Origin: Apostichopus japonicus
Lineage: Eukaryota > Echinodermata > Holothuroidea > Aspidochirotida > Stichopodidae
DNA length: 64,000 nt
Direction: 5' to 3'
Assembly (NCBI RefSeq): GCF_037975245.1
Contig: NC_092568.1
Coordinates: 11,865,501-11,929,500 of the forward strand
Of the stretch, positions 11,386 to 63,477 are shown one piece after another. The notes under the pieces were generated by a model. It was not told the DNA's origin. It was given only the letters and a program-made list of their open reading frames with translations, and ran no database searches. Each line of letters starts with the position of its first letter. Positions within the stretch are counted from its first letter, which is position 1. A program made the translations under genes and the position numbers.

Positions 11386-11414
11386 TCAGCACTGCAGGTA
11401 AAGGTGACGATCAT
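11386..11414 (-). CDS. Copy 1 exon 24 (stop exon)
   Basis: Encodes DDRHLYLQC and TGA directly after a cataacag acceptor. The acceptor, frame and stop are kept in all four copies; copy 4 has only a synonymous CTG to CTA change. That supports this as the true 3' coding exon. The protein would end in Cys. Confidence 0.7.
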
Positions 11415-14400
11415 CTGTTATGAAATGAAGAAAAGAAGAATGACACCTCAACAAAAATTTGGCCGAAGAAGTTCGTGTAACTATACGATTACTTATAATT
11501 GTATGGAATGTAAAATGAAGAAGTATTTACAGTTAAGGTCCGCATTAGGGACTCGTCCCTCATAACAAAGCTGCCTTTGCAATTGACTGACGAAAAGTGA
11601 CGAAAGAAAAAAACGAAAAAAAAAAAAAAAAAAAAGGTTATCCACTAAAGAGCCTTTGTAAGAGAATGTGTAAAAGTAGGAGGGCCTGAGATTTCAATCC
11701 TAGCGAAAATTTACTAACATTGCACTATATATACATTTTCTATATAATGCACTCTTACATAAACCGCACAGTATTGTAAACGTGTGGCGTATTCCATTCA
11801 GTGATGAAATGTCTCTAAATTGATATTTACTCATTTTAATTATCTAATAATGTATATTGATGGTGGAAATTTGTATCATACCATTAGTGAACACGTCGTC
11901 TCCTTTCCCTGCTGGGTAGGTTTGTTTGATGAAGAAAAAACCGTCTGTTGGTAAATAAGAGGATCGTCAATATGAAAATGTAATCTCAGAAAGGTCAAAG
12001 GTCGATATGACTAGTTCGAATCTTTATACGTTGAAGAAACCTTGTTCTGTCGTTATTGCTTTATTTTACTATAAAATATTTTAAGGAAAATAGTATATAA
12101 CTCAGTTGCTTGCCAGGGAGGGGGTGGCCCCTTTCTCCATAGTCAGTGGGAGGGAGCCTCAGTAAGGAGATATTCGGTCGGAAAAGAATAACACCACTCC
12201 TCTGGGCCCACTGACATCCTGAGGTGTAGAACCAGGGAGTATGGGGTGAACAGGCCGCTTTTCAGACTCACTCAGAAATTATAAAGTATTTATTAGCACA
12301 AAACGGGAGTCGGCTTCAAAGACCACATGGCCACATCCTTCCTTTAAGAACCCTTGATCCCACCTTTTTGAAATCATGTGCACGTCTGCTGATGTAGCTC
12401 AAGACATAGCAATGGTAAACGTGTGTAAAATAATCCTATATGTTATGTCCAGTCATTGGTTAATCCTTTGTTACAGAATAACGTACTTATTTTAAATAGT
12501 TGCAATCTTTGAAATAAATATACAAACCTGATTGTCGTAGGTCTATCTCCTCAGCCTGGAATTCGTAACTTCCATCTGTAAAATAAATAAACAATTTGAT
12601 AATTATTGCAAAGGGAAATTTTAACCCCTAGTTGCGTCATTAATTTTCAATCAAACGGCGAAAATAAAGACGCATGCGTATACGTCTCATCGATGAATAG
12701 AAGAAAATACTTCCAAGTGTGATTGTATACAATGTTCATATAATTCTTATATCTCGATACTCGATATATAGTTCAATTGAGATGAGTAAATTATTACCAT
12801 TCGTAGTCGTTTCCGACACACTGTGACTGTAATAAGTATCATCTATAAACAAGAAAATACAAAATAAATTTATTTGTCTTCAATCGGCCTATGACGGAGA
12901 ACAAAGGAAACATGTGAGATATTTATACGATATTTAAATTGTCATGACTTGGCCTTTACAAAGGTGCTGCCTGCCCCTCCCCTAGAAAGTTATTGCCAAC
13001 CCCCTCCCCGGGAATATGCAATGAATGACTACAGGATTGCATTAAGAATGTTTTTTTTTCGCTTTTTAGATGAATCCTTTAACGGTAATAGAGATACAAA
13101 CTCTCACAGAAGAGTAACGTTAACGTATACATTTGCATTAATCGATTCATAATTACCTGTGCTGGTCGATTGGTTTGATGACGTCACTACAGTGGATGAA
13201 ACTCCATCTATATATAAGACAAGGATATGGTATTAGAAGGGCACTACTAAAAAGCAAATGAACAAAGCAACACCAACAACGTATAATATAGCCTACTGTG
13301 ATATCCCCTTGACCATGATGGGATATATATCGGTAAAAGCGCGAAGGTATCATAAATTTATTGATCTATATTTATAAAAATTGAGAGATTCACGATTCTC
13401 AGAGTAACATTATTTTTCGATATTAATCAAATTATGATACGAATATTTACTGTAATATATCACTAAATGACTGTAACAATATTATTTCTGATAAAAATCA
13501 CTCACCAGTTGAGATTCGCTGATCCTGATATACTGTAGTTGTGACGTCACCATCTGGAAGTACAAATGTTTAGAAGTATTGATTATATTTTGATACCTGC
13601 AAGCCTCGGGACACAATCTTTAATACAAAATGTTTGTTACTTCAAGTGGTCTACATTTTTTCATTTACCGTACTTGACACAGTAGGTACATTACAATATA
13701 AAATAATATAGAAACAAGAGTGTGAAAGGTTAAGTTGGTTTTCTTGACATTTACATTTTTACTTTATTACTTTCGTAAATATTAGTTTACACAAGATAGC
13801 TTAGAAATGAAGGTTAATGGTCTTTACTAAACCATACCTGATACAGTTTCCTCCGAGCCACTCTGAGTTTGACTCTGAAATGATGTCCCGTCTGATGATA
13901 CAATTTGTAAATCAAGTTAATTACAAAACTGCAACTTGTTAAAAAAAAAACTTTACTGTAATCCGGTTCATGTATTCTTATTTTTATCCTTTACATGGCA
14001 ACTGTTTGTAGCAGCTATTTAATTCCAAACTATGGTAATATAACAACATAAAGAACAGAGAAAGATCAAATAAGTTTAATAAACGCAGAGAAACTTGATT
14101 ATTTATCTTTTGAAGTCTTTTAACTTTATGAAGAGCAGATCGTGTTAGGTTAAGAATCATTTTACTCATATTTTATATAAATAAATCCAACTCACCACTA
14201 ATACTGGTCTGCAAACTGAATTGTTTGTTTATTGTTGTTTGCTTTCCAGCTAAAATAAGAAGGGAACAAAATAATAAATTTGTAAATTATACTGGGTGGG
14301 TGGCGCTCCATAAATTATAAAAGCCAACAATGATAAATTGACAATAGGAAGGTTATATAAGTATTCACGATATTATCAAAGGTATGGATTTCCTTCCATC

Positions 14401-17400
14401 GCTGTGCGATCGTATATCAATGCATGTATATCAATGACAGAGGTATATAGCTACTTACCTACTACAGTGTTATCAGTGATGTGGCTAAGCTCTTCCTTGC
14501 CAATCCCAAAAACTGTGAACGAGGAGAGTAATTTACAACAAATTATGGATTATTTAATAATTACAAATGTAACCGTATCGATATTATACTGAAGCATTGT
14601 GAGTTAAAACTTCCACGATTATGTTTTGTACAGTGATGAAGAGTAGGGTGAATGGACTGGTGGAAAGATGAGGAAATTTGATAAACACATTATTATGTTG
14701 ATGAGAAGCTAATTATGTCTTACGACTGTTTCAAATAATAACTAAATTAATAATTGGGTAAAATAATAAATTATAACAAAATAATGAACAGTAGGTTACT
14801 CACCAGAGTAATCACACTGTTGAATGTCCTGTGTATGGGTGATAGTTTGACCGTCTGTAAACAGAGAATATATTACGTCACATCATAATATGACAGAATA
14901 ATAGGCAATCAAAGGTATTATAAATCTATAAGAATACTTAATATATAAGATAAATTGTAATTTGATATTCATAATTCCTTATCATTATTATTTATTATTA
15001 TTATTAAATATTTGAAATTACAAACCTTCGGTTTGAGTTGTTATCTTATTCGCCTTCAGTTGGTATGAAGACACCCCATCTGTCAGAGAAAGGAAAGAGG
15101 AATCCATTAATATCGCTGAAACAATAAACTCACAGAAAAAGTCACAGTGTCGATGACGTTAAGGCTATATGTTTACTTGTTGTAAGTAGTCAAGGAGCCG
15201 TAATAGCTCTAAGAAGTAATCCTTCACACACCACTGTTTATCCCCTTCTATACCTCCAGATGATACAGTATATATTGAGCATAAGTTACGCCCACACCCC
15301 CACCCCACCCGCCAAATGAACATCCGAAGAGAAACACCTTGGCAATGACATGTGACACAATATAGCGACACTTACCAGTCCAATAGTACATGTATTTGGT
15401 GGCTGTCTTGGTACCGGTCGGATCTGAAAGAAATATGAAGAAGCATTTTGAAGTAATAATTTCAAAAGTACGTGTTAGAATTTAAAAGAAAAATCAATCA
15501 AAACCTCCTTGGTGTAAACAAACAATCTATTTTTCTCACCTGTTAGAGTTTCCTCGGTGTTTTGGATCTGATCAGGGCCTGCAAAGATTGTCAAATTATG
15601 TTATATTTGAAAACAGTCAAGAAGACTTTTATTACATAAATCTCAGATTTATTACCTTGAGTAGAAATTACAGAAAGAAATGAAAGATTAATATTTAATT
15701 TTTCATATCAATTGAGTTTTAACTTTTCTTGCGCACAATACGTAATTCATTTTCACTCAATACTCACCAGTTGAACTTTTGAAGGTATACTGGTAGTAAG
15801 TCAGGGTGTAACCTGAAAAGCACAAAATGTGACTTATCTCGTCAAAATGTTTTACCTACTGATAAATAGTTAATACGGGACTGCAGAGACTTCCACAGGT
15901 GACCCCCACCACCACACAGTCTTGAAAAAGAAGATACACCTAGATGCTTTAATATAATGTAACCATATATTATAGCCTACCGACTACAGTGAGTGTTACT
16001 TTACCTTCACATCTCGTTGTTGTGGTCTGTTGAGTGTGTTGGCCCTGAATATCTGCAGCGTGAATAAAATTTGGGAAGATTTTATGAAATAATCTTAAAC
16101 ATTTATGACATCGATAGTTTGTTTTCTTCCCTTAGCTTTCTCTTAGGTTTTACTTATTGGCGATGTACTGTGCACCAAGTTCCATATCGTTTATGGTATA
16201 AAAAGTCACGAAAATGATGAAGTAAGGAATGGAAACAAAATATATCTTACCAGACCAGGTAGAGGTAGTATCATCTTGTTGATGCATCTCGAAGGCAGCA
16301 GGGGTCGTGTACTGCTCGACTACAAAATAAAATATATAATCAAGTGATGGTCTGACGAAAATATTAAATTGTTAATGGATTTTTATTCCATATCTTTAGT
16401 ATACTAATCACAAAAGAATTTCACATGAAATTCAAACAGTCCAAATTATTTAAGTCTTTAGAGATATTTTAGTCTGTAGAGATATGTTAGTCTGAGAGAT
16501 AATACGGTGAATCGAGGCAATAACTCGACTCACGATGACTTGCCGATTTTATGATGGAATGACTCGTGATACAGATCTCGAATGTAAGTAACCATATTCA
16601 GAACACGAATGTAAGTAACCATATACAGAACACGAATGTAAGTAACCATATACAGAACACGAATGTAAGTAACCATATACAGAACACGAATGTAAGTAAC
16701 CATATTCAGAACACGAATGTAAGTAACCATATTCAGAACACGAATGTAAGTAACCATATACAGATCAGGAATGTAAGTAACCATATCAGATTGCGAGGTC
16801 TGCATTCTGATATTTTCTATTCGGCAGTGAAGTGATAGAAGGGGGAATGGGTGGATGTCATGAAGAGTGTAGCAAGAGTGGATGAGGTGAGAGGGGCGGT
16901 AACGAGAAGAGAGAGACTGTGAGTGTGTGTATGTGTGTTCTGATACTACAGGCATTCAGTAAAGATAACAACAATGAAACCTTTCTTTAAAAAAAAACTC
17001 ACCTCGAGGTAAATTAATGATCCCAAAGTAACCGCTTGGAATCAGTAACATTCTCTCAGGATCTAAAGGAAAGATTAAGTACAAATTATAAAGTATCGAA
17101 TGATAAAAAAACGGGTAGTATGCCCAAAAGTATTTAATGAGTTTTACGTACAATCTCGTTCGTCTTCAATATTTTGGGTATACTGTACTACGTATAAAGT
17201 TCAACTTACCGTTCTTGTGATCGAGAGGAACACGTGAAGGAAGGCCTTGAATGAGGCGTTCTGCTGCAGTAAAGAAAGAAAAGAACAAACTTATATAGCA
17301 ACAATTAACAACTATTTCAAACCGTCATCATAAAACCAGTTAAATGGTTTTGTGGTCATTTAATTAAAGTATATTGTACCCATATTTCTTTCAATACAAG

Positions 17401-19610
17401 AAGTCATAGTAACTCACCTTCAAATTTTGCCAGCATAAAATCAGGATAAAGTCTTAGCTGGTCTTGCATCGTAAGATTAAGATGGCCTGAATGGGAGTAA
17501 AATGCTAATTAACAACTTTATAGTTTAATGTAAAGTTTGAATTTAATTTGTATGTGATCTTGTTTTATGAATGGTCAGCGAACATATTTCTTTTATAAAT
17601 GAGACTCCTAACTATGTGCTTGAACGTGAAAATTAGTATTCATTATGTAAAGGAAGAGATGATTGCACTTACTGTTAAAAAGATCTTCACGCATGCGCAG
17701 GGTTTGCTCTAAAAAAAGAAGAGAGTTTCCATATATATGTGAAAGTGAAATCATCTGAGCATTAATGTTATTAAGTGACACACACACGCATACACACAAA
17801 AAAAGTAAAGCAAGCACAGAAGTTGTTAAAAACATTCATGGAAACTTAAAATTATTTATGAAGTTCTGAAGGACGATGCATGGTTCGGATGTTTGTAATT
17901 AGAGGGCGGTAGCAAAATTAACAGCCGTCGGTCATGGAATTGTATATGAATGCTAAGTTAATGTAAAGAGTACTGTAGAAACTAGAAAAATAAACTTGGA
18001 GAAATACCTGATGGAAAGCAAAGAAGCGAAGAAACATTTTCTTCGGTGACGGGAAATTCCCGATTGAAGGGTTTCCGTTTTAGATCTATGTAGATGAAAA
18101 CAGTGATAAGAACGATGTCTAAACTACATAGCTTCACTTAGAATCGGAATGCAAGACTATCACGTCACCATGTACATTGGAGGGGGTTGGGTGGGGGTGG
18201 AGGGGCATTATGAGAGTGTATGGTCGTCTCATCTTTACCTTACTCACCGTGGAAGGAAAAGCAAACCAGAGAATCATACCAGGAGAATGATTAACTATAT
18301 ACACATACCTCGATTCTGAAAGTTTTCCTCTCCTTACCCTGTAAGCTACCATAGGATCCCCCCTCCCCGCATCCGTCCCTTCCAATCCAAATTATTATTG
18401 AAGTCACTGGTCAATATATTATATGCTATTCCTCTATTTAATGGATCTATTAATAATCACGTGATATAAATACTCGCCCATAATTGGATGACGTAATTTG
18501 ACTTTGACCTACACCTTACCTTGAAACGGAGGACGGTACCCGTAACATCCTTCTGGGAGGATGTATTGAGCTGAGGATAAACGAAAATATATCTGACTAA
18601 CTATGAAGATGAATTCAGTTTCTTTTAATGACTTGCCTTATATTTTGGTTAGTATATGGAATCAGAAACATTGTATGCAGAGATCTGATATAAGTCTTGT
18701 TAGGCGTCACTATGGACGGGGTGTGTGCTGGGCTAGCTTTTTATAAGGGTTTTTATATTAAAATTTTTTTTTGACTGAGATCAGTAATTCATGTTACCAA
18801 GAAATATTGGACTCCTCAAGGGTAAGGAAGGGTCAGGGAGGGGTGGGGAGATGGAAAACTTTAAATGGAAGGGAGAGAGAAAGAGACCCAACCTACCTCC
18901 ACGTTGAATGAACTGAATATAGGGAACTTTTCCGAACGCTTTATAGAGCATTGAAAATGCAAATTATGATCGTTGAACAATTTCTCTCAGTTATCTGCCT
19001 TTCCAATATTGACAATCGATGTTACATTCACCTACTATAAAACACGTAGTTAATGAAATGCGTCACGCACAGTAACGGTGGCCTGGCCATCCAGGTCCCC
19101 ACAGCACCTCACCCTTACCCCACCCCCTACACACCGTACCAAATTATGTGTTGAGATTGGCCTATTAAGTGATGTCATGTTTTATCTTATTGGATTGTTT
19201 ATGAAGCAAACATAATATTTGACAATCCCGTTATATAGGTATACGCTTTATTCGGACTTACAGTTACCGTAAGAAAAAGGTAACAATAAAATCGTGCACA
19301 AACTTAATATTACTGGCGTATGGAATATCATGTAGGAATTATATACATGTAGGAATGATATTTAACTAGTGAGATGATGTCTAAATTGAACTAATTGTCC
19401 TATAAAGTTAGTATCATTTCGCAATACGAGAAATTCCAAATAACTCGAGGACATCATATAGCGTTCCACATAAAATGACGACTGAAAATGGAAAAATTAA
19501 CATATATTTGTTGGTCTTAACTTACCTCGACCATAGGCCAGGAATTTGGTGAACTTCCTAGCCATGTAAGAGGAAGCATAGTAGCTTGCCATTGAGAATG
19601 TAAAGAACAT
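11386..19610 (-). CDS. Microexon gene copy 1, 24 exons, complete prediction
   Basis: Spliced minus-strand gene, joined exons: 19526-19610, 18897-18938, 18520-18570, 18008-18085, 17673-17708, 17418-17486, 17210-17263, 17003-17062, 16251-16319, 16005-16052, 15768-15812, 15540-15578, 15376-15423, 15026-15079, 14804-14854, 14459-14512, 14196-14249, 13838-13891, 13506-13553, 13157-13207, 12798-12842, 12528-12575, 11882-11944, 11386-11414. The total is 1275 nt, 424 residues. Each exon is bounded by AG and GT. All 22 internal exons are multiples of three in phase 1-1, and the frame stays open throughout. The N-terminal half is basic and aromatic; the C-terminal half is Thr/Ser/Gln-rich with repeated Asp-Gly starts. 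Sequons occur in exons 4 (NVS), 6 (NLT) and 20 (NQS). There are few cysteines, one being the last residue. No family is recognised, and no clear signal peptide or membrane segment is seen. Exons 1 and 2 and the start are the least certain. Confidence 0.75.
11882..11944 (-). CDS. Copy 1 exon 23, 63 nt
   Basis: Encodes 21 residues starting DGFFFIKQTYPAGKGDDV. The protein is unchanged in all four copies; the one base difference (gctggg versus gccggg on the plus strand) is silent. Acceptor accaacag, donor aatg|gtatga. Confidence 0.85.
12528..12575 (-). CDS. Copy 1 exon 22, 48 nt
   Basis: Encodes DGSYEFQAEEIDLRQS; copies 2, 3 and 4 have Tyr instead of Phe and are otherwise identical in protein. 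It is the most acidic module and one of the best conserved. Confidence 0.85.
12798..12842 (-). CDS. Copy 1 exon 21, 45 nt
   Basis: Encodes DDTYYSHSVSETTTN. Copies differ by a few replacements (SLLETTTN ending in copy 3) with the same length and splice sites. Confidence 0.8.
13157..13207 (-). CDS. Copy 1 exon 20, 51 nt
   Basis: Encodes DGVSSTVVTSSNQSTST, almost all Ser/Thr/Val, with one NQS sequon. Also contains TGACGTCA. Acceptor is an alternating tatatatag. Confidence 0.8.
13506..13553 (-). CDS. Copy 1 exon 19, 48 nt
   Basis: Encodes DGDVTTTVYQDQRIST; DDDV... in the other copies. It contains the palindrome TGACGTCA. Donor actg|gtgagt. Confidence 0.8.
13838..13891 (-). CDS. Copy 1 exon 18, 54 nt
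   Basis: Encodes DGTSFQSQTQSGSEETVS. Copies 2, 3 and 4 have Cys in place of the Phe. Donor tcag|gtatgg. Confidence 0.8.
14196..14249 (-). CDS. Copy 1 exon 17, 54 nt
   Basis: Encodes AGKQTTINKQFSLQTSIS, acceptor ttttag, donor agtg|gtgagt. Present in all copies. Confidence 0.8.
14459..14512 (-). CDS. Copy 1 exon 16, 54 nt
   Basis: Encodes VFGIGKEELSHITDNTVV. The donor follows a tandem gtag (gtagtag|gtaagtag), so a donor 3 nt upstream is also possible. Deleted in copy 4. Confidence 0.75.
14804..14854 (-). CDS. Copy 1 exon 15, 51 nt
   Basis: Encodes DGQTITHTQDIQQCDYS; acceptor tttacag, donor tctg|gtgagt. Deleted in copy 4. Confidence 0.8.
15026..15079 (-). CDS. Copy 1 exon 14, 54 nt
   Basis: Encodes DGVSSYQLKANKITTQTE. 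It starts with the same five residues (DGVSS) as exon 20, pointing to exon duplication. In copy 4 this exon lies only 14 nt from exon 17. Confidence 0.8.
15376..15423 (-). CDS. Copy 1 exon 13, 48 nt
   Basis: Encodes DPTGTKTATKYMYYWT; acceptor ctttcag, donor ctg|gtaagtg. Conserved in all four copies. Confidence 0.8.
15540..15578 (-). CDS. Copy 1 exon 12, 39 nt
   Basis: Encodes GPDQIQNTEETLT. Acceptor ttgcag (ttgtag in copies 3 and 4), donor acag|gtgaga. Same length in all four copies. Confidence 0.8.
15768..15812 (-). CDS. Copy 1 exon 11, 45 nt
   Basis: Encodes GYTLTYYQYTFKSST, rich in Tyr and Thr. In copy 4 it has several replacements (HTVAFYQYTF) but keeps length and phase, which suggests relaxed or diversifying change within a fixed frame. 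Confidence 0.8.
16005..16052 (-). CDS. Copy 1 exon 10, 48 nt
   Basis: Encodes DIQGQHTQQTTTTRCE, including a run of four threonines; acceptor gctgcag, donor gaag|gtaaag. Present in all four copies with the same length. Confidence 0.8.
16251..16319 (-). CDS. Copy 1 exon 9, 69 nt
   Basis: Encodes 23 residues starting VEQYTTPAAFEMHQQ and ending TSTWS. Present in all four copies with the same length. It begins the Thr/Ser/Gln-rich half of the protein. Confidence 0.8.
16579..16787. repeat. 27-bp minisatellite, 8 copies, in intron 8 of copy 1
   Basis: Unit aatgtaagtaaccatatacagaacacg with small variants. Because 27 is a multiple of three and the unit has no stop in one frame on each strand, long spurious ORFs run across it both ways (NVSNHIQNT plus, MVTYIRVLN minus). 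It lies between exons 8 and 9 and appears intronic. Each unit contains GTAAGT on the plus strand, antisense to the gene. Confidence 0.9.
17003..17062 (-). CDS. Copy 1 exon 8, 60 nt
   Basis: Encodes DPERMLLIPSGYFGIINLPR; donor cgag|gtgagt. Copy 3 has a 63-nt form (DPARIYFIPNSCDFGIISLP...) in the same phase. The IPSG/IPNS core resembles the LPEG of exon 3. Confidence 0.8.
17210..17263 (-). CDS. Copy 1 exon 7, 54 nt
   Basis: Encodes AERLIQGLPSRVPLDHKN between a ctgcag acceptor and aacg|gtaagt donor. A tandem CAG (ctgcagcag) offers a second acceptor 3 nt downstream, which would drop one residue. Copy 3 is 51 nt and its first half is divergent, while the PLDHKN end is unchanged. Confidence 0.75.
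17418..17486 (-). CDS. Copy 1 exon 6, 69 nt
   Basis: Encodes 23 residues including HLNLTMQDQLRLYPDF. Donor gaag|gtgagt. Copy 3 has a divergent version (LDLTLQDQLKLYPDFG), and the fossil exon at the unit boundary begins with the copy 3-like version. Confidence 0.8.
17673..17708 (-). CDS. Copy 1 exon 5, 36 nt, the shortest internal exon
   Basis: Encodes EQTLRMREDLFN. It has acceptor tttttag and donor aaca|gtaag, and ends with A rather than G, so the junction codon with exon 6 is AGC (Ser). Copy 3 changes M to I and F to L but keeps the frame. Confidence 0.75.
18008..18085 (-). CDS. Copy 1 exon 4, 78 nt, the longest internal exon
   Basis: Encodes 26 residues starting DLKRKPFNREFPVTEE and ending SSLLCFPS, with a possible N-glycosylation site NVS. 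Acceptor ctacatag, donor tcag|gtat. Copies 2 and 3 keep the length and frame with few substitutions. Confidence 0.8.
18520..18570 (-). CDS. Copy 1 exon 3, 51 nt
   Basis: Encodes AQYILPEGCYGYRPPFQ, phase 1-1, with atcctcag acceptor and caag|gtaag donor. The I/LPEG motif recurs in the fossil exon at 20607-20888, and a looser IPSG version occurs in exon 8. Conserved in copies 2 and 3. Confidence 0.75.
18897..18938 (-). CDS. Copy 1 exon 2, 42 nt
   Basis: Encodes AFGKVPYIQFIQRG in phase 1-1. Acceptor ...ctctataaag is weak (no good pyrimidine tract); donor ggag|gtagg is good. It is conserved in copy 2 and destroyed in copy 3, so its use is less certain than that of later exons. Confidence 0.5.
19526..19610 (-). 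CDS. Copy 1 exon 1 (start exon)
   Basis: Eighty-five nt from ATG to a CGAG|gtaag donor, encoding 28 residues that end MARKFTKFLAYGR. The frame stays open upstream to ATGs at 19667 and 19700, but in copy 2 the same upstream frame has a TGA just before this ATG. The ATG at 19610 is therefore the only start usable in all three complete copies. The N-terminus (MFFTFSMASYYASSYM) is aromatic and Ser-rich rather than a classical signal peptide. Confidence 0.55.
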
Positions 19611-19723
19611 CTTGAGAAATCGCACAATAGACTTATCTTCAACAAAGAGCAATTGCAATATAAACATTACATTACATATGTACCTTATAATGTTTATCAT
19701 CGTTGTCCATTTTTTTTACTGTG

Positions 19724-19731
19724 TGACGTCA
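19724..19731. promoter_or_regulatory. CRE-like palindrome TGACGTCA upstream of copy 1
   Basis: Lies 114 bp upstream of the chosen start codon. The same octamer is kept upstream of copies 2 and 3 (near 35019 and 52166). A second copy lies at 19962-19969. TGACGTCA is the classical CREB/ATF half-site pair; function here is inferred. Confidence 0.4.
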
Positions 19732-19811
19732 CATGTACAGTAACGCTCGCGCAATGATCACTCAGTGCGTTTCAACAAGTTACGCTCCGAGATCTGTTGT
19801 GTCCTTCGAAA

Positions 19812-19822
19812 CATATATATAC
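19812..19822 (-). promoter_or_regulatory. TATA-like box upstream of gene copy 1
   Basis: Alternating TATATATA about 200 bp before the start codon, between the two CRE-like sites. Unit 2 keeps a shorter version; unit 3 has no equivalent. A core promoter is plausible but unproven. Confidence 0.3.
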
Positions 19823-40786: not shown

Positions 40787-40794
40787 GTGGCGTC

Positions 40795-42541: not shown

Positions 42542-42549
42542 TATGCTGC

Positions 42550-46500: not shown

Positions 46501-49500
46501 AACAACATAAAGAACAAAGAAAGATGAAATAAGTTCAATATACGAGTTTCGAAGTCAAACTCGATTATTTATCTTTTGAAGTATTTTAAGAAGAGCAGAT
46601 CGCGTTATGTTAAAATTCATTTCATTCATATTTTATATAAATAAATCCAACTCACCACTAACACTGGTCTGCAAACTGAATTGTTTGTTTGTTGTTGTTT
46701 TCTTTCCAGCTAAAAAAAAAGAAGGGAAACAAATTATAATTTTGTAAATTATACTGTGTGGCGTTCCATAAACAATAACAGCTAACAATGATAAATTGAC
46801 AAGAGGAAGGTTATATATGTATTCACGACATTATCAAAGGTATGGATTTCTTTCTATCGCTGTTCGATCGTATAACAATGCATGTATATCAATGACAGAG
46901 GTATATAGCTACTTACCTACTACAGTGTTATCAGTTATGTGGCTTAGCTCTTCCTTGCCAATCCCAAAAACTGTGAACGAGGAGAGTAATTTACTACAAA
47001 TTATGGATTACTTAATAATTACAAATGTAACTGTATCGATATTATACTAAAGCAGTGTGCGTTAAAACTTCCACGATTATGTTTTGAACAGTTAATGAAG
47101 AGTAGGGTTGGTGGACTGGTGGAAAGATGATCATTATTATGTTGATGAGAAGCTAATTATGTCTTATGAATGTTTCAAATAATAAACTAATTAGTTATTG
47201 GGTAAAATAATAAATGATATTAAAATAATGGACAAAATGTTCCTCACCAGAGTAATCACACTGTTGAATGTCCTGTGTATGGGTGATAGTTTGTCCGTCT
47301 GTAAACACAGAATATAATGTAACATCATAATGTGACAGACTAAGGCAAAACAAAGGTATTATAAATTAATACTTAATATATAAGATAATTTGTCATCTTA
47401 TATTCATAGTTCCTTATCATTTATTATTATTATATATTTGAAATTACAAACCTTCGGTTTGAGTTGTTATCTTATTCGCCTTCAGTTGGTATGAAGACAC
47501 CCCATCTGTCAGAGAAAGGAAAGAGGAATCCATTAATATCGCTGAAACAATATACTTACAGTGTTGATGACTTTAAGGCTATATGTCTACTTGTTGTAAT
47601 TAGTCAAGGAGTCGTAATAGCTCCATGAATTAATCCTTCTCACATCAAAGTTTATCCCTTCTATACCTCCAGATGTTACAGTATATATTGAGCATAAGGT
47701 AGCCCCCCCCCCCCCTCCTCCCCAAATGGATCTCCAAAGAGATGGAAACACCTTTACAAGGACATGTGACACAATATGACGGTACTTACCAGTCCAATAG
47801 TACATGTATTTGGTAGCTGTCTTGGTACCGGTTGGATCTGAAAGAAATATGAAGAAGCAGTTTGAAGTAAGAATTTAAAATTATTGGTTAGAATTTAAAA
47901 CAAAAATCAATCAAAACTCCTTGATGTAAACAAACAATCTATTTTTCTCACCTGTTAGAGTTTCCTCGGTGTTTTGGATCTGATCAGGGCCTACAAAGAG
48001 TGACAAATTATGTTATATTTGAAAGACTTTTATTACATAAATCTACGGTTTATTACCTTGAGTAAAAATTATAGAAAGAAATGAAAGATTACTATTTCAA
48101 TTTTTCAAATCAATTGAGTATTAACTTTTCTTGCGCACACTTTTTACAATTTCACTCAATACTCACCAGTTGAACTTTTGAAAGTATACTGGTAGAAAGT
48201 CAGGGTGTAACCTGAAAAGCGAAAAAATATGACTTTTCTCGTCAAAATATGATAATTACAAGTAACTATTTGGCACGGGACTGCAGAGACTTCCCCAAGT
48301 GACCGACCCCCACCCCCTCCCATGTGTTGAAAAAGAAGATATACCTAAATGCTTTAATATAATGTAACCGTATATTATAGCCTACCGACTACAGTGAGTG
48401 TTACTTTACCTTCACATCTCGTTGTTGTGGTCTGTTGAGTGTGTTGGCCCTGAATATCTGCAGCGTGAATAAAACTGGCTAAAGTTTTTATAAACTTAAA
48501 AAACATTTGTTTTGACAATGATAGTTTGTATTTCTTCCCTTTTTTCTTAGGTTTTTCTCAGTGGTGATGTACTGTGAACAAAGAAGTTTCTCTCACAAGT
48601 TCGGATGCAATGCAGTACTGACTAAAAGCTTACCGTTTATAATATACAAAAGTCACGAAAATTATGAAATACTGAGTGGAAATAAAATGTATCTTACCAG
48701 ACCAGGTAGAGGTAGTATCATCTTGTTGATGCACCTCGAAGGCAGTAGGGGTCTTGTACTGCTCGACTACAAAAAATTCAAACATTCAAGAAAATATTTT
48801 TAGGCTTAGTTTAGGGCTTAATCAGATAAGAAAGTGCCGCTAATAATATGTAAGGGGATAAAGGATTGGGGGGGGGGGCGGATAATGTCGCTACTCCTTC
48901 TTATATCAGAGAAACTTTTTTTTCGATATGTTACTAAATAAGACTCGTTTTTTAGTGTCATATTTGTAATTTCATTAAATGGAAGTATATGTGATATGAA
49001 CAGTTGGGACACTTGAAGACCAAGAAATTTTAGTCACAGTGAAAGTGCTTCAACATTCAGTCGGAAGGGAAGTGTAGAGGGGAAAGGGAGTGACTGAAAG
49101 AGAAGAAGAGCATGTCAGTGAAATGTGTGGAGAGGAGGTAAGGAAAGGTAAGAAAGAGCGTTGGATGAGGGGCTTGGGGTATAGAGAAGGTCTGCATCTA
49201 ATACAAAGACCCAGTAGTTAATTAGAATTCTATCAAATTTAGTAAAAAAAATAACACATTCAATGAGATCTTGCTTTAAAACAATCAAACTCACTTCGAG
49301 GTAAAGAAATGATCCCAAAGTCACAGGAATTTGGAATAAAATAGATTCTCGCAGGATCTGAAAGTATAAAGATTAAAATCAGTTTAACTGGTCGAACACG
49401 GTTAGCATGTTTAATGAATAGTCTGATCTGTCTTACATGCGATAATACTGATATATGTAAGCTTAACTTACCGTTCTTGTGATCGAGAGGAATACTTGAA

Positions 49501-52054
49501 GAAAGTCTGTGAAGGAGACACTCTGTGGACCAAGAAATAATAATAACTAAACTTAAGATAAATGAAAAGAAAACTAAATCTATCATACCGTCTTTGAAAT
49601 AGTCTAACCACCTGTTCGTGTTCTAATAGTTAAATAATAATTATATGTGTATTTATTTCAATATAAGATCTCAAGTTCATAACTCACCTTCAAGGTTTGC
49701 CAGCCCAAAGTCAGGGTAGAGTTTTAGCTGGTCTTGAAGCGTGAGATCAAGATAGCCTTAGTATAGGAAAGGAGAATGTTAATTATAACATAGTTTATAC
49801 TAAAGTTTGACTTAAATAAGTTTACATGTTTTATGGTTTTTAACGAACGTATAAAGTTTGGATATTCAGTATCCGTCAAGATAGCCTCGAATTTGGAACA
49901 TAGAAGGTAATTAATAATAGTATTGTTTACATTAAAGTTTGACTTAAATAAGTTTGTCATCTCTCTACTTAAATGAACGTATATAATATGAATATTCATG
50001 AAGAGGTGATAAGCTTACTGTTGAGAAGATCTTCACGGATGCGTAGGGTTTGCTCTATAACAAAACAGAGAATGTATGATAGAGTCACATTAGAAGTAAT
50101 GTAATTATTCATTTTGATGATTCAAGAAACGAATACACACACACTCATACAAGAGAGGAAGTAAGGGAAGCGTTAAGAAAACAACCAACCGGAAAATTAT
50201 GAAGAGAAACGAGACACTGAATGGACGACGAAGAGTTTATAAATGACTATGGTCCGTGTCTTGTAAAATAGAGGGCAGTAGCAATTTACAGCCAATGGTC
50301 ACAGAAATTTATTGCGAAGTGTCATTATACAATTCAATTCAGAAGGTATGAATTGTTGCCAAATTGCAGACTGAACTTATACCTGATGGAAAGCAAAGGA
50401 GCGAAGAAATATTTTCTTCGGTGACGGGAAATTCCCGATTGAAGGGTTTCCGTTGTAGATCTATATAGAAACAATAAAAAATATTACAATTACAAAAAGT
50501 TTGTTACTAAAAGTATGTCTGTAAAAAAAGTATGTAAATAAATCATAAAGTATGTAAATCTTTGCTTGGAGACAGGAATAAAGATCTTTTATCAATAATT
50601 TCAATATATTACGTGGTGGGGAGGGGGAGGGTGGAGAGGTTGGTAGTGCTATGTGAGTGGACGGTCGTCCTATCATTTCCTTAATTACCCACCGGGGAAG
50701 GAAAAATTATAAAAGGAATCACACCGGGAGAATGCTTAACTATATAACCCGATTTTCAAAGCTCAGTTCCTCTCCTTACCCTCCAAGTCTTGACCTAGTT
50801 AAGTACGCTCTTACCACTTCTGCCCACATCTCATTTCCCCTTCCAGTAAAACACCATTTACTTAATGCACTTGCCAATGTATTATTCCTCTGCTTGGATA
50901 TATTATTCATGAGATATAAATGCTCAACCAAAATTGGATGACGTAATTTTGTTTGACCGACACCTTACCTTGAAACGGTGGACAATACCCATAACATCCT
51001 TCTGGGAGGATGTATTGAGCTGAGGATAAAGGAAAATATATCTGACTAACTATGAAGATGAATTCAGTTTCTTGTAATGACTTGCCTTATATTTTGGTTA
51101 ATATATGAAATCAGAAACATTGTATGCAGAGATCTGATATAAGTCTTGTTAGGCGTCACTATGGACGGGGTGTGTGCTGAGCTAGCTTTTTATTTTGGTT
51201 GGCATGTAAAGAAGAAACACTGTTGACTGAGATCAGCAAGTCATTTTCAATGACATATTGGACTCCTCAAGTGTAAGGATAGCGTGGGGTGGGAGATGGA
51301 CAACTTGAATTGAAAGGGACGAACTGAATATAGGGAACTGTTAGGAACGCTTTATAAAGCATTAAAATACAAATTATGATCGCTGGACAATCTTCTCTCA
51401 GTAATCGGCCTTCCTAATATTGACAATCGATGTTACATTCACCTACTATAAAACACGTAGTTAATGAAATACGTCACGTACAGAGTAACGATGGCCTGGC
51501 CATCCAGACCCCAACAGCACCTCACCCTTACTCCACCCTACACACCGTACCAATTGTATGTTGATATTGACCTATTAAGTGATGTCATGTTTTATCTGAT
51601 TGGATTGTTTATGAAGCAAACATAATATCTAAAAATCCCGTTATATAGGTATTACGCTTTATTCGGACTATACAGTTACCGTATAAAACACGGTAACAAT
51701 AAAATCGTACACAAAGTTAATGTTATTGGCGTACGTAATATCTTGTAGGAATTGTACACACAATAGGGTTCATCAAATCAAACAAACTTAAACTGATATT
51801 TAACATGTGAGATGATGTCTATATTGAACTAATTGTCCTATAAAGTTAGTATCATATCTTAATACGAGAAATTCCAAATAACTCGAGGACATCCCTTTGT
51901 ATAGCGTTCCACATAAAATGACGACTCAAAATGCAACAAATAAACATATATTTATTGGTCATAACTTACATCGCCCATAGGCCAGGAATTTGGTGAACTT
52001 CCTAGCCATGTAAGAGGAAGCATAGTAGCTTGCCAGTGAAAATGTAAAGAACAT
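43588..52054 (-). CDS. Microexon gene copy 3, 23 exons, exon 2 lost
   Basis: Exons: 51970-52054, (exon 2 lost), 50969-51019, 50383-50460, 50019-50054, 49688-49756, 49472-49522, 49295-49357, 48698-48766, 48410-48457, 48167-48211, 47952-47990, 47790-47837, 47452-47505, 47248-47298, 46917-46970, 46656-46709, 46269-46322, 45931-45978, 45621-45671, 45275-45319, 44864-44911, 44047-44109, 43588-43616. Predicted 410 residues. Skipping exon 2 keeps the frame because exons are phase 1-1. Exons 5-8 differ markedly from copies 1 and 2 (exon 6 LDLTLQDQLKLYPDFG; exon 7 is 3 nt shorter; exon 8 is 3 nt longer), and intron 8 has no minisatellite. Exon 1 ends CGAT|gtaag. The frame stays open; product unknown. 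Confidence 0.7.
51310..51355 (-). pseudogene. Remnant of exon 2 in copy 3
   Basis: Aligns to exon 2 of copies 1 and 2 around ttccctatattcagttc, but a deletion of about 35 bp removed the donor and the last codons, and other substitutions altered the 5' end. It cannot be used as the original exon. Confidence 0.6.
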
Positions 52055-55000
52055 CTTGAAAAATCGCACAATAGACTTATCTTCAACGAAGAGCAATTGC
52101 AATATAAACATTACATTACATATATAGCTTATAATGTTTATTGTCGTTGTCCATGTCATTTCTGTGTGACGTCACATGTACAGTAACGCTCGCGCAATGA
52201 TCACTCAGTGCGTTTCAACCACTGATCTACACTAATGTAGATCAGGGGTTTCAACGAGTTACGCTCCAAGATATGTTGTTGCGCTTCGGCCCATAAAAAT
52301 ACAACTTACAGAGAACTGTTATAGCGCATCGGTAAGCGAATGCGCGCACGTGTACGCGTAAGTTGGCTCCATCGCTAAGTGTGCATGGACGCACTGCAAG
52401 AAATCATACAGTAACAAACGTATGTATCCTCGTGCGTGTACTGACTTCACTGTTTGTGAAAGGTATGAGAGTAATGGATCTAGCGCATCTTTGACACTAT
52501 ACCGTTGTAGGCTACGCTGAAGGCGACCTATATGTCCTACGCTTTCGCAATGATCATGCAGTGTCCTTCGCGAGTTTTCCATATCCACTATCTGTTCCCG
52601 GTTCAAATTCACCACAGGAACCAGATTCTTTTGACCTATTCAGAATTGCTTTGTAGAGTTGTTGAGCGGAGTCTTCCGTGGAATTGAATATTTGCGAGTT
52701 GTGAAATATATGCATGACACAGCACTGAGCTAACAGAGGCGGATAAAGGACGTGATGGGGGCCTTGAGAAGCCAACTTCCTGAAAGAGGATACGGGGGAC
52801 CCCGCTCACCCTCCCCTCTCCTCCCCTCCCCTACCCTCCACTTCCTCTCTCCCTCTACCTCCCCTAAACAAATATTCGACGTGAAATGATGCATTCTGAG
52901 GCATTACTCAAGTCTATAATTAGTTTGGTCTTAGTTTATTTTTTTTTCAAGCAGAAAACGATCAATAGGTAAATTTATTGCACACCAACTACACTATTGA
53001 CTTGTAAAACAATTATAATAAAGAACAGGGAATCGGGTAACATTATTCCGAGATAAAACTAGTTTTATCCAGAGACGTGTACAACGAACAGATAGACCGA
53101 AGAGTTGAAGACATCCCCGAAGATCATGTGTAGTATCTGTTCCCTTACGAGGGGAATGGTTATACACAGTCTCGATGCAAGGGGACTGGGGTTGAGGGCA
53201 GATCAGACGTTCGGTATTTTGGTTTTCTTGCCCAGGTTCTTTCCTGGGTGACTTTTCTTAAAAGTATCCCAGGTAATCAATCACGGGAGAATGATCGGCA
53301 ACTACATTTTGCTGTAACTCGATAACTCACTTAAATAATTAAATAATAAATAAGGCAGAATTTGAGTCTTGATACGTATAATACAAAGAAAACAGACAAC
53401 TTTGAGTCCAATAATGTTTCTGTAGCTATTCCATTATTTTTCAAGATATGTATCGTTAAATATACTTAATTTATGGAATATTCGTTTAGGCTAACTTGAT
53501 GGTGACGTCGGCTCCTCACTGCAGTTCTTATAGTTAATGTTAATCCGTTTTTTTTTAGGTCAACCAGAATATGTTCGTTAAACTTCATATACGCAACAGA
53601 GCACCCTTGGATGGCATTCGACATCATTTGTCCTTAACAAATTTGTAATAAATTATGAACATGTCATTTGAGACCATATCATCTTAATTTCTCCCATTGA
53701 GTTGTGTAGTGCAACCGACAGAGGAACTAGTCTGATTGGCTGTGTAATTAACTAATTAAATGGTCCAGTCACTTTAATTAGTGAACCTCAACTGTTTAAA
53801 GGGTCATTCAAAAGAACAAACAAAAAAATAAGTAAATGTGCTATACAACCCTAGCTAGACCGAGAGCAGTGGTTTTTAACGGTCCACGGCATATCAAACT
53901 TAATTTTGTTGCTGAAGTTATCAAAACACAATACGGGGTATTTTTTTTTGTGAATCTCAAACAAAGTTCTTAAGAATCACTCAGTTTCCGAAACTACCTA
54001 CTATCCGGTATGATAATTTGTTACATTAACACTGTTGCTTATAATGGGACCATATTGAAACTAGTATACTTTGGTTTTCTTGCAAAAGTGATACAGATTG
54101 ACTTCTATATATCATAAAATTCTATCTCATGGTCTTGTCGGCTTGTATGTCTCTTGTATTGCAACGAATATAATGCTTGTTTTGGTGTAGGTTGTGTATA
54201 TCTTTACCAACAAATTTATATTAAACAATGAGCCTAATTAAGTTCCTGCAAACCCCTGTGAACCGCATGACTGTTTGAATGTGTTGCTTGGCCTACCACA
54301 AATAACCTATTACAATAAAATCCATTCCACCTTCAGAGTGACAAGAAAAAAATACGGCTTTCAAGGAATTCGATGGCGCTAGTTTGAAACAGGGTGTTTT
54401 TTAATTTAAAATAACTATATGGCTCTTAAAGGCATCCGTAGACTCTCTTTTAGGAGAATAGTGCCTCATCAGGCCACATATTCAGTGGTCGGTGGCTGCA
54501 AGCATGCCGGTCGCAGAGATGTCACCACCTCTGGCCAAAGGCAAGGATTCACGCACGCCACCTCCCGGGTTCTTTTGCGACAACAAGGGAGACATGGTAC
54601 GGGATCCTAGGCCACAAAAAAGCATAATGCCACAGCCTGAGGTATTATCGCCAGAGGCCTGTCTTGAACCCTAGCCACGATTTACACGACCGACGAGGAA
54701 TGAGTCTTTCGTCACCCTCTTAACAGCATCGGCCACCACATCAGCTAGTAATTTATATGGTTGAATTAATATATCAAGACTTCAGCGTCGACTACTGAAA
54801 TAGAAAAAGAAATTTTAAACGTGTATAATCAACCATCGATGGAGTCGAACTCAGTTGATCAGGTTACCAGTCAACTGCGCTACCCACTGAATCATTTGAT
54901 GAGTTAACTTTCTACGAGCTTAAATTGATATTGTTGGTTGGATACAATCTATTGGTAACAGTGAACGACACTGCATTCAACGAAATCTCTATTCATCCTG

Positions 55001-59114: not shown

Positions 59115-62100
59115 TCAGCACTGTAGGTAAAGGTGACGATCATCTGTTTTGAAATGGAAAAAAAAAAGAAGAATGACACCTCAAAAATAAATTGTGCAGA
59201 AGAAGTTCGTGTAACTATACGGTCCATGAATAGTTCGGGTTATTAATTATACTAGTTTGGAAAGCTGTCTTTGCAAATGACGAAAAGTAACGAAAAAAAC
59301 CAAACTGTTAGGAAACTGCTTAAACACTAAAGAACATGTGTAAGAAAATGTGTCAAAGTAAAAGGCCCCGACGTTTCGATCCTAGCGAAAATTTACTAAC
59401 ATCGCAGCGAGAAGTATACAGTTTATATACATGTTCTATAAAATGCACTCTTACGTATACCGCACAGTATTGTGAACGTGTGATGTATTCCATTCAGTGA
59501 TGAAATGTCACTTTATTGATATTAACTAATTTTAATTATCTAATAATGTATATTGATAATGTAAACATGTATCATACCATTAGTGAACACGTCGTCTCCT
59601 TTCCCTGCCGGGTAGGTTTGTTTGATGAAGAAAAAACCGTCTGTTGGTAAATAAGAGGATCGTGAATGTCAATATTAAAGTGGCTGTGAAAACGTAATCT
59701 CAGAAAGGTCAAAGGTCAATATGACTAGTTAAAATCTTTATTCGTTTAAGAGACATTGTTTCTGATGTTATTGGTAACTTTACTACAAAATATTTTATGG
59801 ATAAAGAAAACAATTTAAAATCAGAGGCTTTCCCGAGTGGGGGGTGGCGCTTTTCTCTATAGTCAGTGGGAGGAAGAGAAAAATACCACTCCTCTGGGCT
59901 CACTGACGTCCTGAGGCGTAGAACCAGGGGTATGGGGTGAATGGGCCGTTTTTCAGACTCACTCAGAAATTCAAAAGTATTTATAAGCCCAAAACTTGCG
60001 TTAGATCGAATTATAGACATAATTTCTAGTCTAAATATACCCCAGAATACATCATTTATTTTGATGTCTGCACATTTTATGCTTATTCGTGAGTCGGCTT
60101 AAAAGACCACAGTGCCACACCCCTTCCTATATAAGAACCCTTGATCCGCCTCTGTACATTCTACGGTCATGCCCCTACGTAAATCAGTCTGGGCAAATTT
60201 AGCAATTAATCCCCCCCCCCCCCACATCTTTAAAATCCTGTGCACGTCTGCTGATGTAGCTCAAGAAATAGCCATGGTAAACGTGTGTAAAATAATGCTA
60301 TACGTTAAGTCCAGTCATTGGTGAAACCGTTGTTACAGCATAACGTACTTATTTTAAATAAATGGAATCTTTTGAAGTAAATATACAAACCTGATTGTCG
60401 TAGGTCTATCTCCTCAGCCTGGTATTCGTAACTTCCATCTGTAAGGAAAATAAACAATTTGATAATTATTGCAAAGGACAGGCTGTTACCCCGAGTTGCG
60501 CCATACATATGAAATCAAAAGGCGAAAATAAAGACGCATGGGTATACTTCTCATAGATAAATGTAAGAAAATACTTCCAAGTATGATTGTATATAATTTT
60601 CTTATATACTCATATCTCGACGCTCGATAACATACTTCGTAGGGAATTTTAATATTTCGATCGAACGACTTAAGAAATCCAATTTTCGTGGATGTGTCTG
60701 TCAATATTTGTTACAATCATTGTTTTGTGTAATATTGATAAAATTGTTATGAATGGCTATACTATACATATCGCTCAATTGAGATGAGTAAATTATTACC
60801 ATTCGTAGTCGTCTCCAACAAACTGTGGCTGTAGTAAGTATCATCTATGAACAAGAAAATACAAAATAATTTTAATTGTCTTCAATCGGACTATTACGGA
60901 GAACAAAGGAAACATGTGAGATATTTATACAATATTTAAATTGTCAGGACTTGGCATTTAGAAAGTTTCTGCCTGCCCCTCCCCTAGAAAGGCATTGCCC
61001 CCCTCGAAACTATACAATGAATGACTACAGGATTGCATTAGCATTTTTTTCTCGCTTTATAGATGAATCCTTTAAATGGTAATAGAGATACAAACTCCTA
61101 CAGAATAGTACCGTTGACGTACATTTGCATAATCGATTCATAATTACCTGTGCGGGTCGATTGGTTTGATGACGTCACGACACTGGATGAAACTCCATCT
61201 ATATATAAGACAAGGATATGGTATTAGAAGGGCACTTCTAAAAGCAAATGACCAAAGCAACACCAACAACGTATAATATAGCCTACTGTGATATCCCCTT
61301 GACCATGATGGGATATATATATATTTATGAATATTTAGAGATTCACGATCCTCGGAGTAACAGCATTTTTCGATCTTTATTAATTATGATATGAATATTT
61401 ACTGTAATATATCACTCAATGACTGAATCAATATTAGTTCTGATAAAAATCACTCACCAGTTGAGATTCGCTGATCTTGATATTCTGTAGTTGTGACGTC
61501 ATCATCTGGAAGTAAATACAAAAAGGTTTAGAAGTAATTATTATATTTTGATACCTGCAAGCCTCGGGACACAATCTTTAATACAAAATGTTTGTTACTT
61601 CAAGTGATTTACATTTTTTTCATTGACTGTACTTGATACAGTAGTTACATAACAATATAAAATCATATAGAAACAAGAGTGTGAAAGGTTAATTGTTTTT
61701 CTTGACATTTGAAGCAAAATAAGACTATATTTTCGTCAATATTAGTTAACATAAAGATAGCTTAGACATTAAGGTTTACGGTCTTTACTAAACCATACCT
61801 GATACAGTTTCCTCCGAGCCACTCTGAGTTTGAGTCTGACATGATGTCCCGTCTGAGGGTAAAAAGATTTAAATCTAGTTCACTACAAAACTGCAATTTG
61901 TAAAACCTCTTTATTGTCATCCGGTTCATGTGTTCGTATATTTACCCTTTACAGGAAAACTGTTTATAGTATATATAGTGCATATATTTTCGGTCAGTGT
62001 AGCAAATTTAGTCCCAAACTATGGTAATATAACAACATAAAGAACAAAGAAAGATCAAATAAGTTCAATATACGAGTTTCGAAGTCAAACTCGATTATTT

Positions 62101-63477
62101 ATCTTTTGAAGTATTTTAAGAAGAGCAGATCGCGTTATGTTAAAATTCATTTCATTCATATTTTAAATAAATAAATCCAACTCACCACTAATACTGGTCT
62201 GCAAACTGAATTGTTTGTTTGTTGTTGTTTGCTTTCCAGCTAAAACAAGAAACCTTCGGTTTGAGTTGTTATCTTATTCGCCTTCAGTTGGTATGAAGAC
62301 ACTCCATCTGTCAGAGAAAGGAAAGAAGAATCCATTAATATCGCTGAAACAATATACTTACAGTGTTGATGACTTTAAGGCTATATGTCTACTTGTTGTA
62401 ATTAGTCAAGGAGTCGTAATAGCTCCATGAATTAATCCTTCTCACATCACTGTTTATCCCTTCTATACCTCCAGATGTTACAGTATATATTGAGCATAAG
62501 GTAGCCCCCCCCCCCCTCCTCCCCAAATGGATCTCCAAAGAGATGGAAACACCTTTACAAGGACATGTGACACAATATGACGGTACTTACCAGTCCAATA
62601 GTACATGTATTTGGTAGCTGTCTTGGTACCGGTTGGATCTGAAAGAAATATGAAGAAGCAGTTTGAAGTAAGAATTTAAAATTATTGGTTAGAATTTAAC
62701 ACAAAAATCAATCAAAACTCCTTGATGTAAACAAACAATCTATTTTTCTCACCTGTTAGAGTTTCCTCGGTGATTTGGATCTGATCAGGGCCTACAAAGA
62801 GTGACAAATTATGTTATATTTGAAAGACTTTTATTACATAAATCTACGGTTTATTACCTTGAGTAAAAATTATAGAAAGAAATGAAAGATTACTATTTAA
62901 ATTTTTCAAATCAATTGAGTATTAACTTTTCTTGCGCACACTTTTTACAATTTCACTCAATACTCACCAGTTGAGCTTTTGAAGGTATACTGGTAAAAAG
63001 CCACGGTGTGACCTGAAAAGCGAAAAAAATATGACCTTTCTCGTCAAAATGTGATAATTACAAGTAACTATTTGACACGGGACTGCAGAGACTTCCCCAA
63101 GTGACCGACCCCCACGGCCCACCCCCTCCCATGTGTTGAAAAGGAAGATATACCTAAATGCTATAATATAATGTAACTATATATTATAGCCTACCGACTA
63201 CAGTGAGTGTTACTTTACCTTCACATCTCGTTGTTGTGGTCTGTTGAGTGTGTTGGCCCTGAATATCTGCAGCGTGAATAAAATTGGCTAAAGTTTTTAT
63301 AAACTTAAAAAAAACATTTGTTTTGACAATGATAGTTTGTATTTCTTCCCTTTTTCAAAAGTCACGAAAATTATGAAATACTGAGTGGAAATAAAATATG
63401 TATCTTACCAGACCAGGTAGAGGTAGTATCATCTTGTTTATGCACCTCGAAGCCAGCAGAGGTCTTGTACTGCTCGA
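59115..63477 (-). CDS. Microexon gene copy 4, partial, exons 15-16 deleted
   Basis: Exons visible: 63409-63477 (exon 9), 63219-63266, 62968-63012, 62753-62791, 62591-62638, 62254-62307 (exon 14), 62186-62239 (exon 17), 61799-61852, 61458-61505, 61148-61198, 60800-60844, 60391-60438, 59578-59640, 59115-59143. The window ends just before exon 8, so the 5' part is unseen. A deletion of about 740 bp relative to copy 3 removed exons 15 and 16 and most of the adjoining introns. Exons 14 and 17 are now 14 nt apart (62240-62253), too short for a normal intron; retention would read into an in-frame TAG. A productive transcript must skip exon 14 or 17, which keeps the frame. Close to copy 3 elsewhere; exon 11 has several replacements. 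Confidence 0.65.

Follow-up and report, generated by a model that had tools for sequence, protein, structure and literature searches.

A tandem family of predicted micro-exon genes with uniform phase-1 introns in the sea cucumber Apostichopus japonicus

Introduction

Can a series of minute open segments that matches no protein family constitute a real gene, and what would such a gene be for? The question is raised by a stretch of 64,000 nt from the sea cucumber Apostichopus japonicus (positions 11865501–11929500 of contig NC_092568.1, hereafter C8, of 43.0 Mb), which is referred to as the window and was analysed together with the genome of 671,581,487 bases in 35 contigs. A tandem array fills the window, and its head-to-tail units, each of 15–17 kb, carry minus-strand genes composed of tiny exons that agree from copy to copy in length, splice sites, and frame. 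An initial annotation described four such units with 24-exon genes between 11386 and 63477, a product of 424 residues, and an undescribed family for which a secreted, adhesive, or variable immune-type protein was conceivable. The analysis reported here very probably identifies a real protein-coding multigene family of A. japonicus with 23 coding micro-exons, phase-1 introns, and a conserved upstream stretch, which would have expanded in tandem and exchanged blocks among its copies under purifying selection.

Gene structure

The gene nearest the start of the window, copy A, consists of 23 coding exons, and its 21 internal exons measure 36–78 nt with a median of 51 nt. All 22 junctions are in phase 1 in copies A and C and in a paralogue termed 'out' (C8:7.33 Mb), and the lengths of the internal exons are multiples of three in all 16 intact copies. 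The required splice borders, both AG and GT except that exon 1 was scored for its donor only and exon 23 for its acceptor only, are present in 477 of 479 exon instances from 21 loci. A scan of copies A–C for open phase-1 segments between AG and GT above a splice-score threshold returned almost only segments that are predicted exons or differ from them at the ends. It recovered 15 of the 21 internal exons of copy A, exons 3, 13, 17, 20, 21, and 22 falling below the threshold, and a stricter earlier scan kept 18 candidates.

These results retain the repeated units with their tiny minus-strand exons as the initial annotation described them, but correct the number of coding exons to 23. No 24th exon was found: between exons 1 and 22 every block aligned to the paralogue holds a predicted exon, and a leader directly precedes exon 1. 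The original span is exact: position 11386 is the end of the last exon of copy A, and position 63477 is the start of exon 8 in copy D. Of the four gene copies, A, B, and C are intact, whereas D is broken by the loss of exons 14–15 and has its exons 1–7 beyond the window end; the array itself is far larger than the window. The product of 424 residues gives way to one of 409–410 amino acids (aa), read from an ATG that is open in every intact copy. An upstream ATG, giving a 429-aa product, was rejected because its frame is closed by TGA in copies B, m4, m5, and m7. A 54-nt form of exon 6 was replaced by one of 51 nt because the type II copies checked (C, D, m1, p14, p15, and p16; defined below) and the paralogue carry only the second AG of a double acceptor. 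The 429-aa product of copy A was the query in the Pfam and PDB single-sequence searches and in the first genome searches, and the 54-nt exon 6, with its one extra residue, entered the Pfam, PDB, and genome queries, the family alignment, and the exon-by-exon ratios; the 51-nt form was used in the reading of loci, the substitution rates, the junction analysis, and the spliced-sequence search.

Intron 7 of copies A and B (16569–16790 and 31905–32181) contains a 27-bp minisatellite of 8–10 copies, open on the minus strand and encoding MVTYIRDLY-like repeats. It was rejected as coding sequence, as no block aligned to the paralogue covers it, and its open frame is probably a consequence of a period divisible by three.

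Selection against an old paralogue

The paralogue lies 4.5 Mb from the cluster. Alignment by blastn (E up to 0.01) of 'out' with copies A, C, m9, and p15 gave 20–22 blocks each, every one of which holds at least one of exons 1–22; exon 23 of 'out' was found slightly beyond the aligned blocks. Intron lengths range among the intact copies from 436 to 2225 nt for intron 7, 277 to 2482 nt for intron 14, and 157 to 177 nt for intron 5.

Comparison of the 15 intact copies with 'out', after one exon 7 codon was removed from the 410-aa copies, gave a mean nonsynonymous distance (dN) of 0.136 and a mean synonymous distance (dS) of 0.399, with dN/dS values of 0.31–0.39. Bootstrap intervals for A, C, m9, and p15 against 'out' extended from 0.25 to at most 0.50. 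The dN/dS comparison that the initial annotation had suggested supports its coding interpretation, with an uneven picture exon by exon. As judged from these sequence comparisons, purifying selection maintains the exon lengths, the splice sites, and the protein.

Distribution in the genome and exchange among copies

A genome search with the copy A product (E up to 10) detected at least 112 exon matches, all on C8. Exon 1 was found at a minimum of 22 loci, again all on C8: 20 of them (13 on the minus strand and 7 on the plus strand) form a cluster of about 0.7 Mb at 11.63–12.33 Mb, and the others lie at 7.09 and 7.33 Mb. The genome searches scored the best 98 of 438, 103 of 258, and 40 of 97 candidates, which makes these counts lower bounds, and exon matches lacking exon 1, e.g. 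near C8:11.565, 12.21, and 12.32 Mb, were left outside the locus count. Exon-by-exon reading of 21 of the 22 loci, in which exon alignments counted as missing if they scored below 0.40 (first reading) or 0.42 (final reading) of the maximum or broke the exon order, found 16 intact: A, B, C, m1–m9, p10, p15, p16, and 'out'. In viral contigs and prokaryote genomes, each scanned with two short peptide patterns, no relative was confirmed.

Exons 4–7 occur in two versions, of which type II is recognised from an exon 7 of 63 nt, present in C, D, m1, p14, p15, and p16; p13 was assigned to the same type from its 410-aa product. The two versions have probably been mixed among the copies by gene conversion. 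Copy m1 is itself a mosaic, its exons 3–7 being nearest to p15, C, and p16 and its exons 9–19 nearest to B, a pattern most simply explained by gene conversion or unequal crossing-over.

The upstream region

The 48 nt before the ATG, referred to as the leader, differ from the consensus at 0–2 positions in each of the 21 loci and at 1 position in 'out', against a synonymous distance of 0.40. A genome search for a 33-base stretch of the leader, allowing up to three mismatches, found 22 places, all on C8 and all at exon 1, and the reversed control found 0. Farther upstream, 19 of the 21 loci, including 16 of 16 intact ones, carry the 8-mer TGACGTCA, which resembles a cAMP response element (CRE), at a distance of 113–127 nt from the ATG; copies D and p14, both broken, are without it. 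In 18 of the 21 loci, TATA-like stretches lie 57–76 nt upstream of the ATG, as picked out by a permissive pattern with no control for chance matches. Both motifs are putative.

Exons 18 and 19 each carry the same 8-mer as the region before exon 1, in copies A–D and in others. In addition, an exon-5-like fragment is present upstream of exon 1 in copy A (20814–20888) and copy B (36112–36186), perhaps a relic of an older rearrangement.

The predicted protein

The N-terminus, MFFTFSLASYYASSYMARKF, displays no clear signal peptide by eye. Copies A, C, and 'out' contain 5, 9, and 4 cysteines, respectively, and also differ in their sequons. In the family alignment of 7 of the 21 loci, the five other cluster copies share 89–96% protein identity with copy A. 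These features lend no support to the secreted, adhesive, or variable immune-type protein that was initially envisaged.

Exons 9–23 encode 18% Thr, 11% Ser, 11% Gln, and 9% Asp, and Chou–Fasman values, a crude measure, favoured strand over helix in most of them, with the exceptions of exons 11, 17, and 21 and a tie in exon 15. The residue whose codon is split by the intron is Asp at 13 of the 22 junctions of copy A versus 17 among 84 comparable residues at other places (p 0.0004), and the Asp-Gly dipeptides stand at junctions in every case (7/7 in A, 6/6 in C, and 6/6 in 'out'). Considering the Asp residues at the junctions and the location of all Asp-Gly dipeptides there, a hint is obtained that suggests that the exon borders may coincide with turns.

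Profile searches, also proposed in the initial annotation, recognised no family, in agreement with its view of the genes as undescribed. No Pfam match was obtained for the copy A product at E up to 10, and Pfam, NCBIfam, and PHROG searches of 7 members yielded no fitting family and only scattered weak matches. HalA (E 0.023), two unnamed PHROGs (0.12 and 0.16), RMI1_C (0.08), and WS_DGAT (0.18) each matched a single member, and Myosin_N (1.1) matched two of the 7; all of these were dismissed as noise.

Interpretation and alternatives

These genes look real and useful because tiny pieces are kept almost unchanged in many copies. For the proposed route of expression, transcription would proceed from the conserved upstream stretch with its CRE-like site, TATA-like stretch, and 48-nt leader, and the removal of 22 introns would yield the product of 409–410 aa. 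The family would have grown by tandem duplication, with exchange of blocks among copies, most simply by gene conversion.

Several observations weigh against this interpretation. Five of the 21 loci (D, p11, p12, p13, and p14) are damaged or contain a gap: p11 lacks exon 20, and its exon 23, not found in the fetched stretch, probably lies beyond it; exon 19 of p12 is without its AG, as is exon 5 of p13 as mapped; and exon 5 of p14 is one base short. The 22nd locus (C8:7085800–7094800, 7.09 Mb) is a relic: the 9,001 bases read there yielded exons 1–12 only, and exon 12, as mapped, is not preceded by an AG. Some blocks aligned to 'out' extend through the short introns 4, 5, 6, and 8, where divergence of the introns is incomplete. 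Among the 15 intact copies within the cluster, the ratio of nonsynonymous to synonymous differences (pN/pS) is 0.53, and by exon it falls at 0.17–0.88 in most but reaches 1.76 in exon 7 and 3.52 in exon 8, and it has no defined value in exon 16, where synonymous change is absent; against 'out', exon 3 gives 1.96, a sign of uneven constraint. These exon-by-exon ratios exclude exons of unequal length, the exons are short, and positive selection in exons 3, 7, and 8 is not claimed. The CRE-like 8-mer is not specific to the promoter region, as it occurs 79 times in the 21 copies (221,412 bases), 35 times in exons 18–19, 11 times about 350 nt upstream, and 14 times elsewhere; two other 8-mers, counted as a rough control, were seen once and twice, respectively. 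The mutual likeness of the exon peptides was reached by 3 of 500 whole-peptide shuffles, but with the first two residues held it was reached by 32 of 500 and is no more than expected by chance; internal homology from exon to exon is not claimed for this reason, and the notion of a beta-repeat protein is weak. Finally, a spliced-sequence genome search (at least 250 matches) gave, among the matches listed, single exons and no processed retrocopy that would attest to splicing.

Three rival readings were weighed. The damaged loci and the relic could mark a decaying array, i.e., a former gene surviving mostly as pseudogenes kept alike by recent duplication, yet 16 of 21 loci are intact over 23 exons, dN/dS is well below one, and the blocks shared with the old paralogue hold exons, all of which makes decay very improbable. 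The leader surpasses the coding part in conservation, which would suit conserved non-coding elements in place of exons; the AG/GT borders, the lengths in threes, the open frames, and dN/dS below one render this scarcely credible. A very diverged known fold, such as a jelly roll resembling that of GH11 xylanases at about residues 196–340, was pointed to by PDB matches with E 0.083 for the single sequence and 0.0043 for the profile. However, the bias amounts to 6.7 bits beside a score of 19, a Pfam search with E values up to 10 shows GH11 in none of the 7 members, and the Glu of the xylanase EYYIVE stretch, presumably the catalytic residue, faces no Glu in the printed alignment. The match looks compositional, and a fold of this kind is improbable.

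Accepting the coding family, our best guess for its function, a tentative one, is a lineage-specific structural, beta-rich protein that would be made in quantity from many near-identical genes, the array serving for dosage. The protein would comprise an N-terminal part (exons 1–8) and a Thr/Gln/Ser-rich, beta-prone part (exons 9–23) with roughly one strand or hairpin per exon and Asp-Gly turns at the borders. Dosage is favoured over diversity because the copies are alike and constrained. A diversity array of secreted variable proteins, as proposed for the micro-exon genes (MEGs) of schistosomes, is the less likely option, although exons of uniform phase 1 would permit cassettes to be swapped or skipped without loss of frame, natural exon losses have occurred twice (exons 14–15 in D and exon 20 in p11), the two versions of exons 4–7 are mixed, pN/pS within the cluster exceeds one in exons 7–8, and position 155 of the protein varies among M, V, K, and F. 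Against it stand the high identity of the five other cluster copies to A, the low dN/dS relative to the old paralogue, the absence of a clear signal peptide on inspection, the poor conservation of sequons and of cysteine number, and the remnant in D, where the exon loss is no clean skip but left 14 nt that include a stop. Somewhat more doubtful still is a genomic exon-cassette system in which 21 internal micro-exons of one phase, together with gene conversion and cost-free skipping or loss, would generate combinatorial beta-rich proteins in an echinoderm; if true, this would give the same-phase micro-exon design a counterpart in animals that is independent of flatworms and aphids.

Feature coordinates and other elements of the window

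Table 1. Positions in the window of the gene copies, their exons, and associated elements (exon lists run from high to low positions).
Feature	Position	Strand	Remarks
Copy A	11386..19658	(-)	intact gene with leader, 23 coding exons, 409 aa
Copy B	26552..34955	(-)	intact gene with leader, 23 coding exons, 409 aa
Copy C	43588..52102	(-)	intact gene with leader, 23 coding exons, 410 aa; type II exons 4–7
Copy D	59115..64000	(-)	broken; exons 8–13 and 16–23 within window, exons 14–15 absent
Copy D, remnant between exons 13 and 16	62240..62253	(-)	14 nt; in-frame TAG if unspliced
CRE-like TGACGTCA, copy A	19724..19731	(-)	before ATG; putative
CRE-like TGACGTCA, copy B	35020..35027	(-)	before ATG; putative
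CRE-like TGACGTCA, copy C	52167..52174	(-)	before ATG; putative
Copy A leader	19611..19658	(-)	near-invariant 48 nt
Copy A exon 1, coding part	19526..19610	(-)	
Copy A exon 2	18520..18570	(-)	
Copy A exon 3	18008..18085	(-)	
Copy A exon 4	17673..17708	(-)	
Copy A exon 5	17418..17486	(-)	
Copy A exon 6	17210..17260	(-)	51 nt, second AG of double acceptor
Copy A exon 7	17003..17062	(-)	
Copy A exon 8	16251..16319	(-)	
Copy A exon 9	16005..16052	(-)	
Copy A exon 10	15768..15812	(-)	
Copy A exon 11	15540..15578	(-)	
Copy A exon 12	15376..15423	(-)	
Copy A exon 13	15026..15079	(-)	
Copy A exon 14	14804..14854	(-)	
Copy A exon 15	14459..14512	(-)	
Copy A exon 16	14196..14249	(-)	
Copy A exon 17	13838..13891	(-)	
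Copy A exon 18	13506..13553	(-)	
Copy A exon 19	13157..13207	(-)	
Copy A exon 20	12798..12842	(-)	
Copy A exon 21	12528..12575	(-)	
Copy A exon 22	11882..11944	(-)	
Copy A exon 23	11386..11414	(-)	including stop codon
Copy B exons 1–12	34907-34823, 33944-33894, 33460-33383, 33071-33036, 32850-32782, 32623-32573, 32433-32374, 31654-31586, 31387-31340, 31162-31118, 30928-30890, 30792-30745	(-)	exon 1, coding part
Copy B exons 13–23	30443-30390, 30245-30195, 29917-29864, 29655-29602, 29292-29239, 28954-28907, 28609-28559, 28333-28289, 27855-27808, 27072-27010, 26580-26552	(-)	
Copy C exons 1–12	52054-51970, 51019-50969, 50460-50383, 50054-50019, 49756-49688, 49522-49472, 49357-49295, 48766-48698, 48457-48410, 48211-48167, 47990-47952, 47837-47790	(-)	exon 1, coding part
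Copy C exons 13–23	47505-47452, 47298-47248, 46970-46917, 46709-46656, 46322-46269, 45978-45931, 45671-45621, 45319-45275, 44911-44864, 44109-44047, 43616-43588	(-)	
Copy D exons 8–13	63477-63409, 63266-63219, 63012-62968, 62791-62753, 62638-62591, 62307-62254	(-)	
Copy D exons 16–23	62239-62186, 61852-61799, 61505-61458, 61198-61148, 60844-60800, 60438-60391, 59640-59578, 59143-59115	(-)	

Between the genes, an intergenic plus-strand open frame of 149 aa is located at 7238–7687, and its counterparts in other units are about 71–95% alike in protein; two of the three contain early stops, and the third has one stop in the matched part. The stretch 40785–42538 of unit B is not present in the aligned units A and C and is either an insertion or a segment lost from A and C. 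An AT-rich tandem repeat, partly self-complementary and with periods of 20, 41, 61, and 81, occupies 57647–57888, and short repeats similar to it occur near 10044–10150. Rfam and tRNA scans of the window gave no matches. Outside C8, several COX1 pieces were noted at 13728–17354 of the 31-kb contig C29, which may be a mitochondrial fragment that stayed in the assembly. The whole COX1 is on C35, where it is open throughout in genetic code 9, shared by echinoderms and flatworms.

Comparison with known micro-exon families

Searches of an open-access library on echinoderm and sea cucumber micro-exons and on tandem families of A. japonicus (including PMC5638244 and PMC13228809) brought up no account of the family, in keeping with the initial annotation, and gene models for these loci may exist under 'uncharacterized' names. 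Among the tandem families of this species, for which one report lists 74 clusters with more than 5 tandem copies, the PSP94-like cluster has no homologues in other species and highly conserved cysteines (PMC5638244). It shares with the micro-exon family the tandem arrangement in A. japonicus, whereas cysteine numbers vary in the latter.

Closer parallels in design are found in two other lineages. The bicycle genes of aphids, implicated as plant-gall effectors, contain many unusually small internal exons, with about 17 exons on average, and almost all of their internal exons start at codon position 2; the family is hard to relate to others by sequence (PMC9168663). In the sea cucumber genes the internal exons are likewise small and begin at codon position 2, but these genes show overall purifying selection and near-identical copies, and they are likened to bicycle genes by exon design and not by sequence. 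In the MEGs of schistosomes, most of the coding region resides in very small symmetrical exons; these genes are described as restricted to platyhelminths, all have a signal peptide, and three have dN/dS above 1 in the mature part (PMC4350168). The 21 internal phase-1 exons of copy A correspond to this arrangement, whereas the present family belongs to an echinoderm, has no clear signal peptide by eye, and gives a dN/dS of about 0.35 relative to its paralogue. Membership in either group is not claimed, and the sea cucumber family resembles them in design.

Gene finders may miss or mangle micro-exon genes of this kind. The 16 intact copies, the old paralogue, and the defined exon losses together provide a natural test of the retention of one-phase introns. 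Considering that the same-phase micro-exon families described from schistosomes and aphids are linked there to secreted effectors, an apparently independent third case in a free-living echinoderm would mean that the design does not depend on parasitism.

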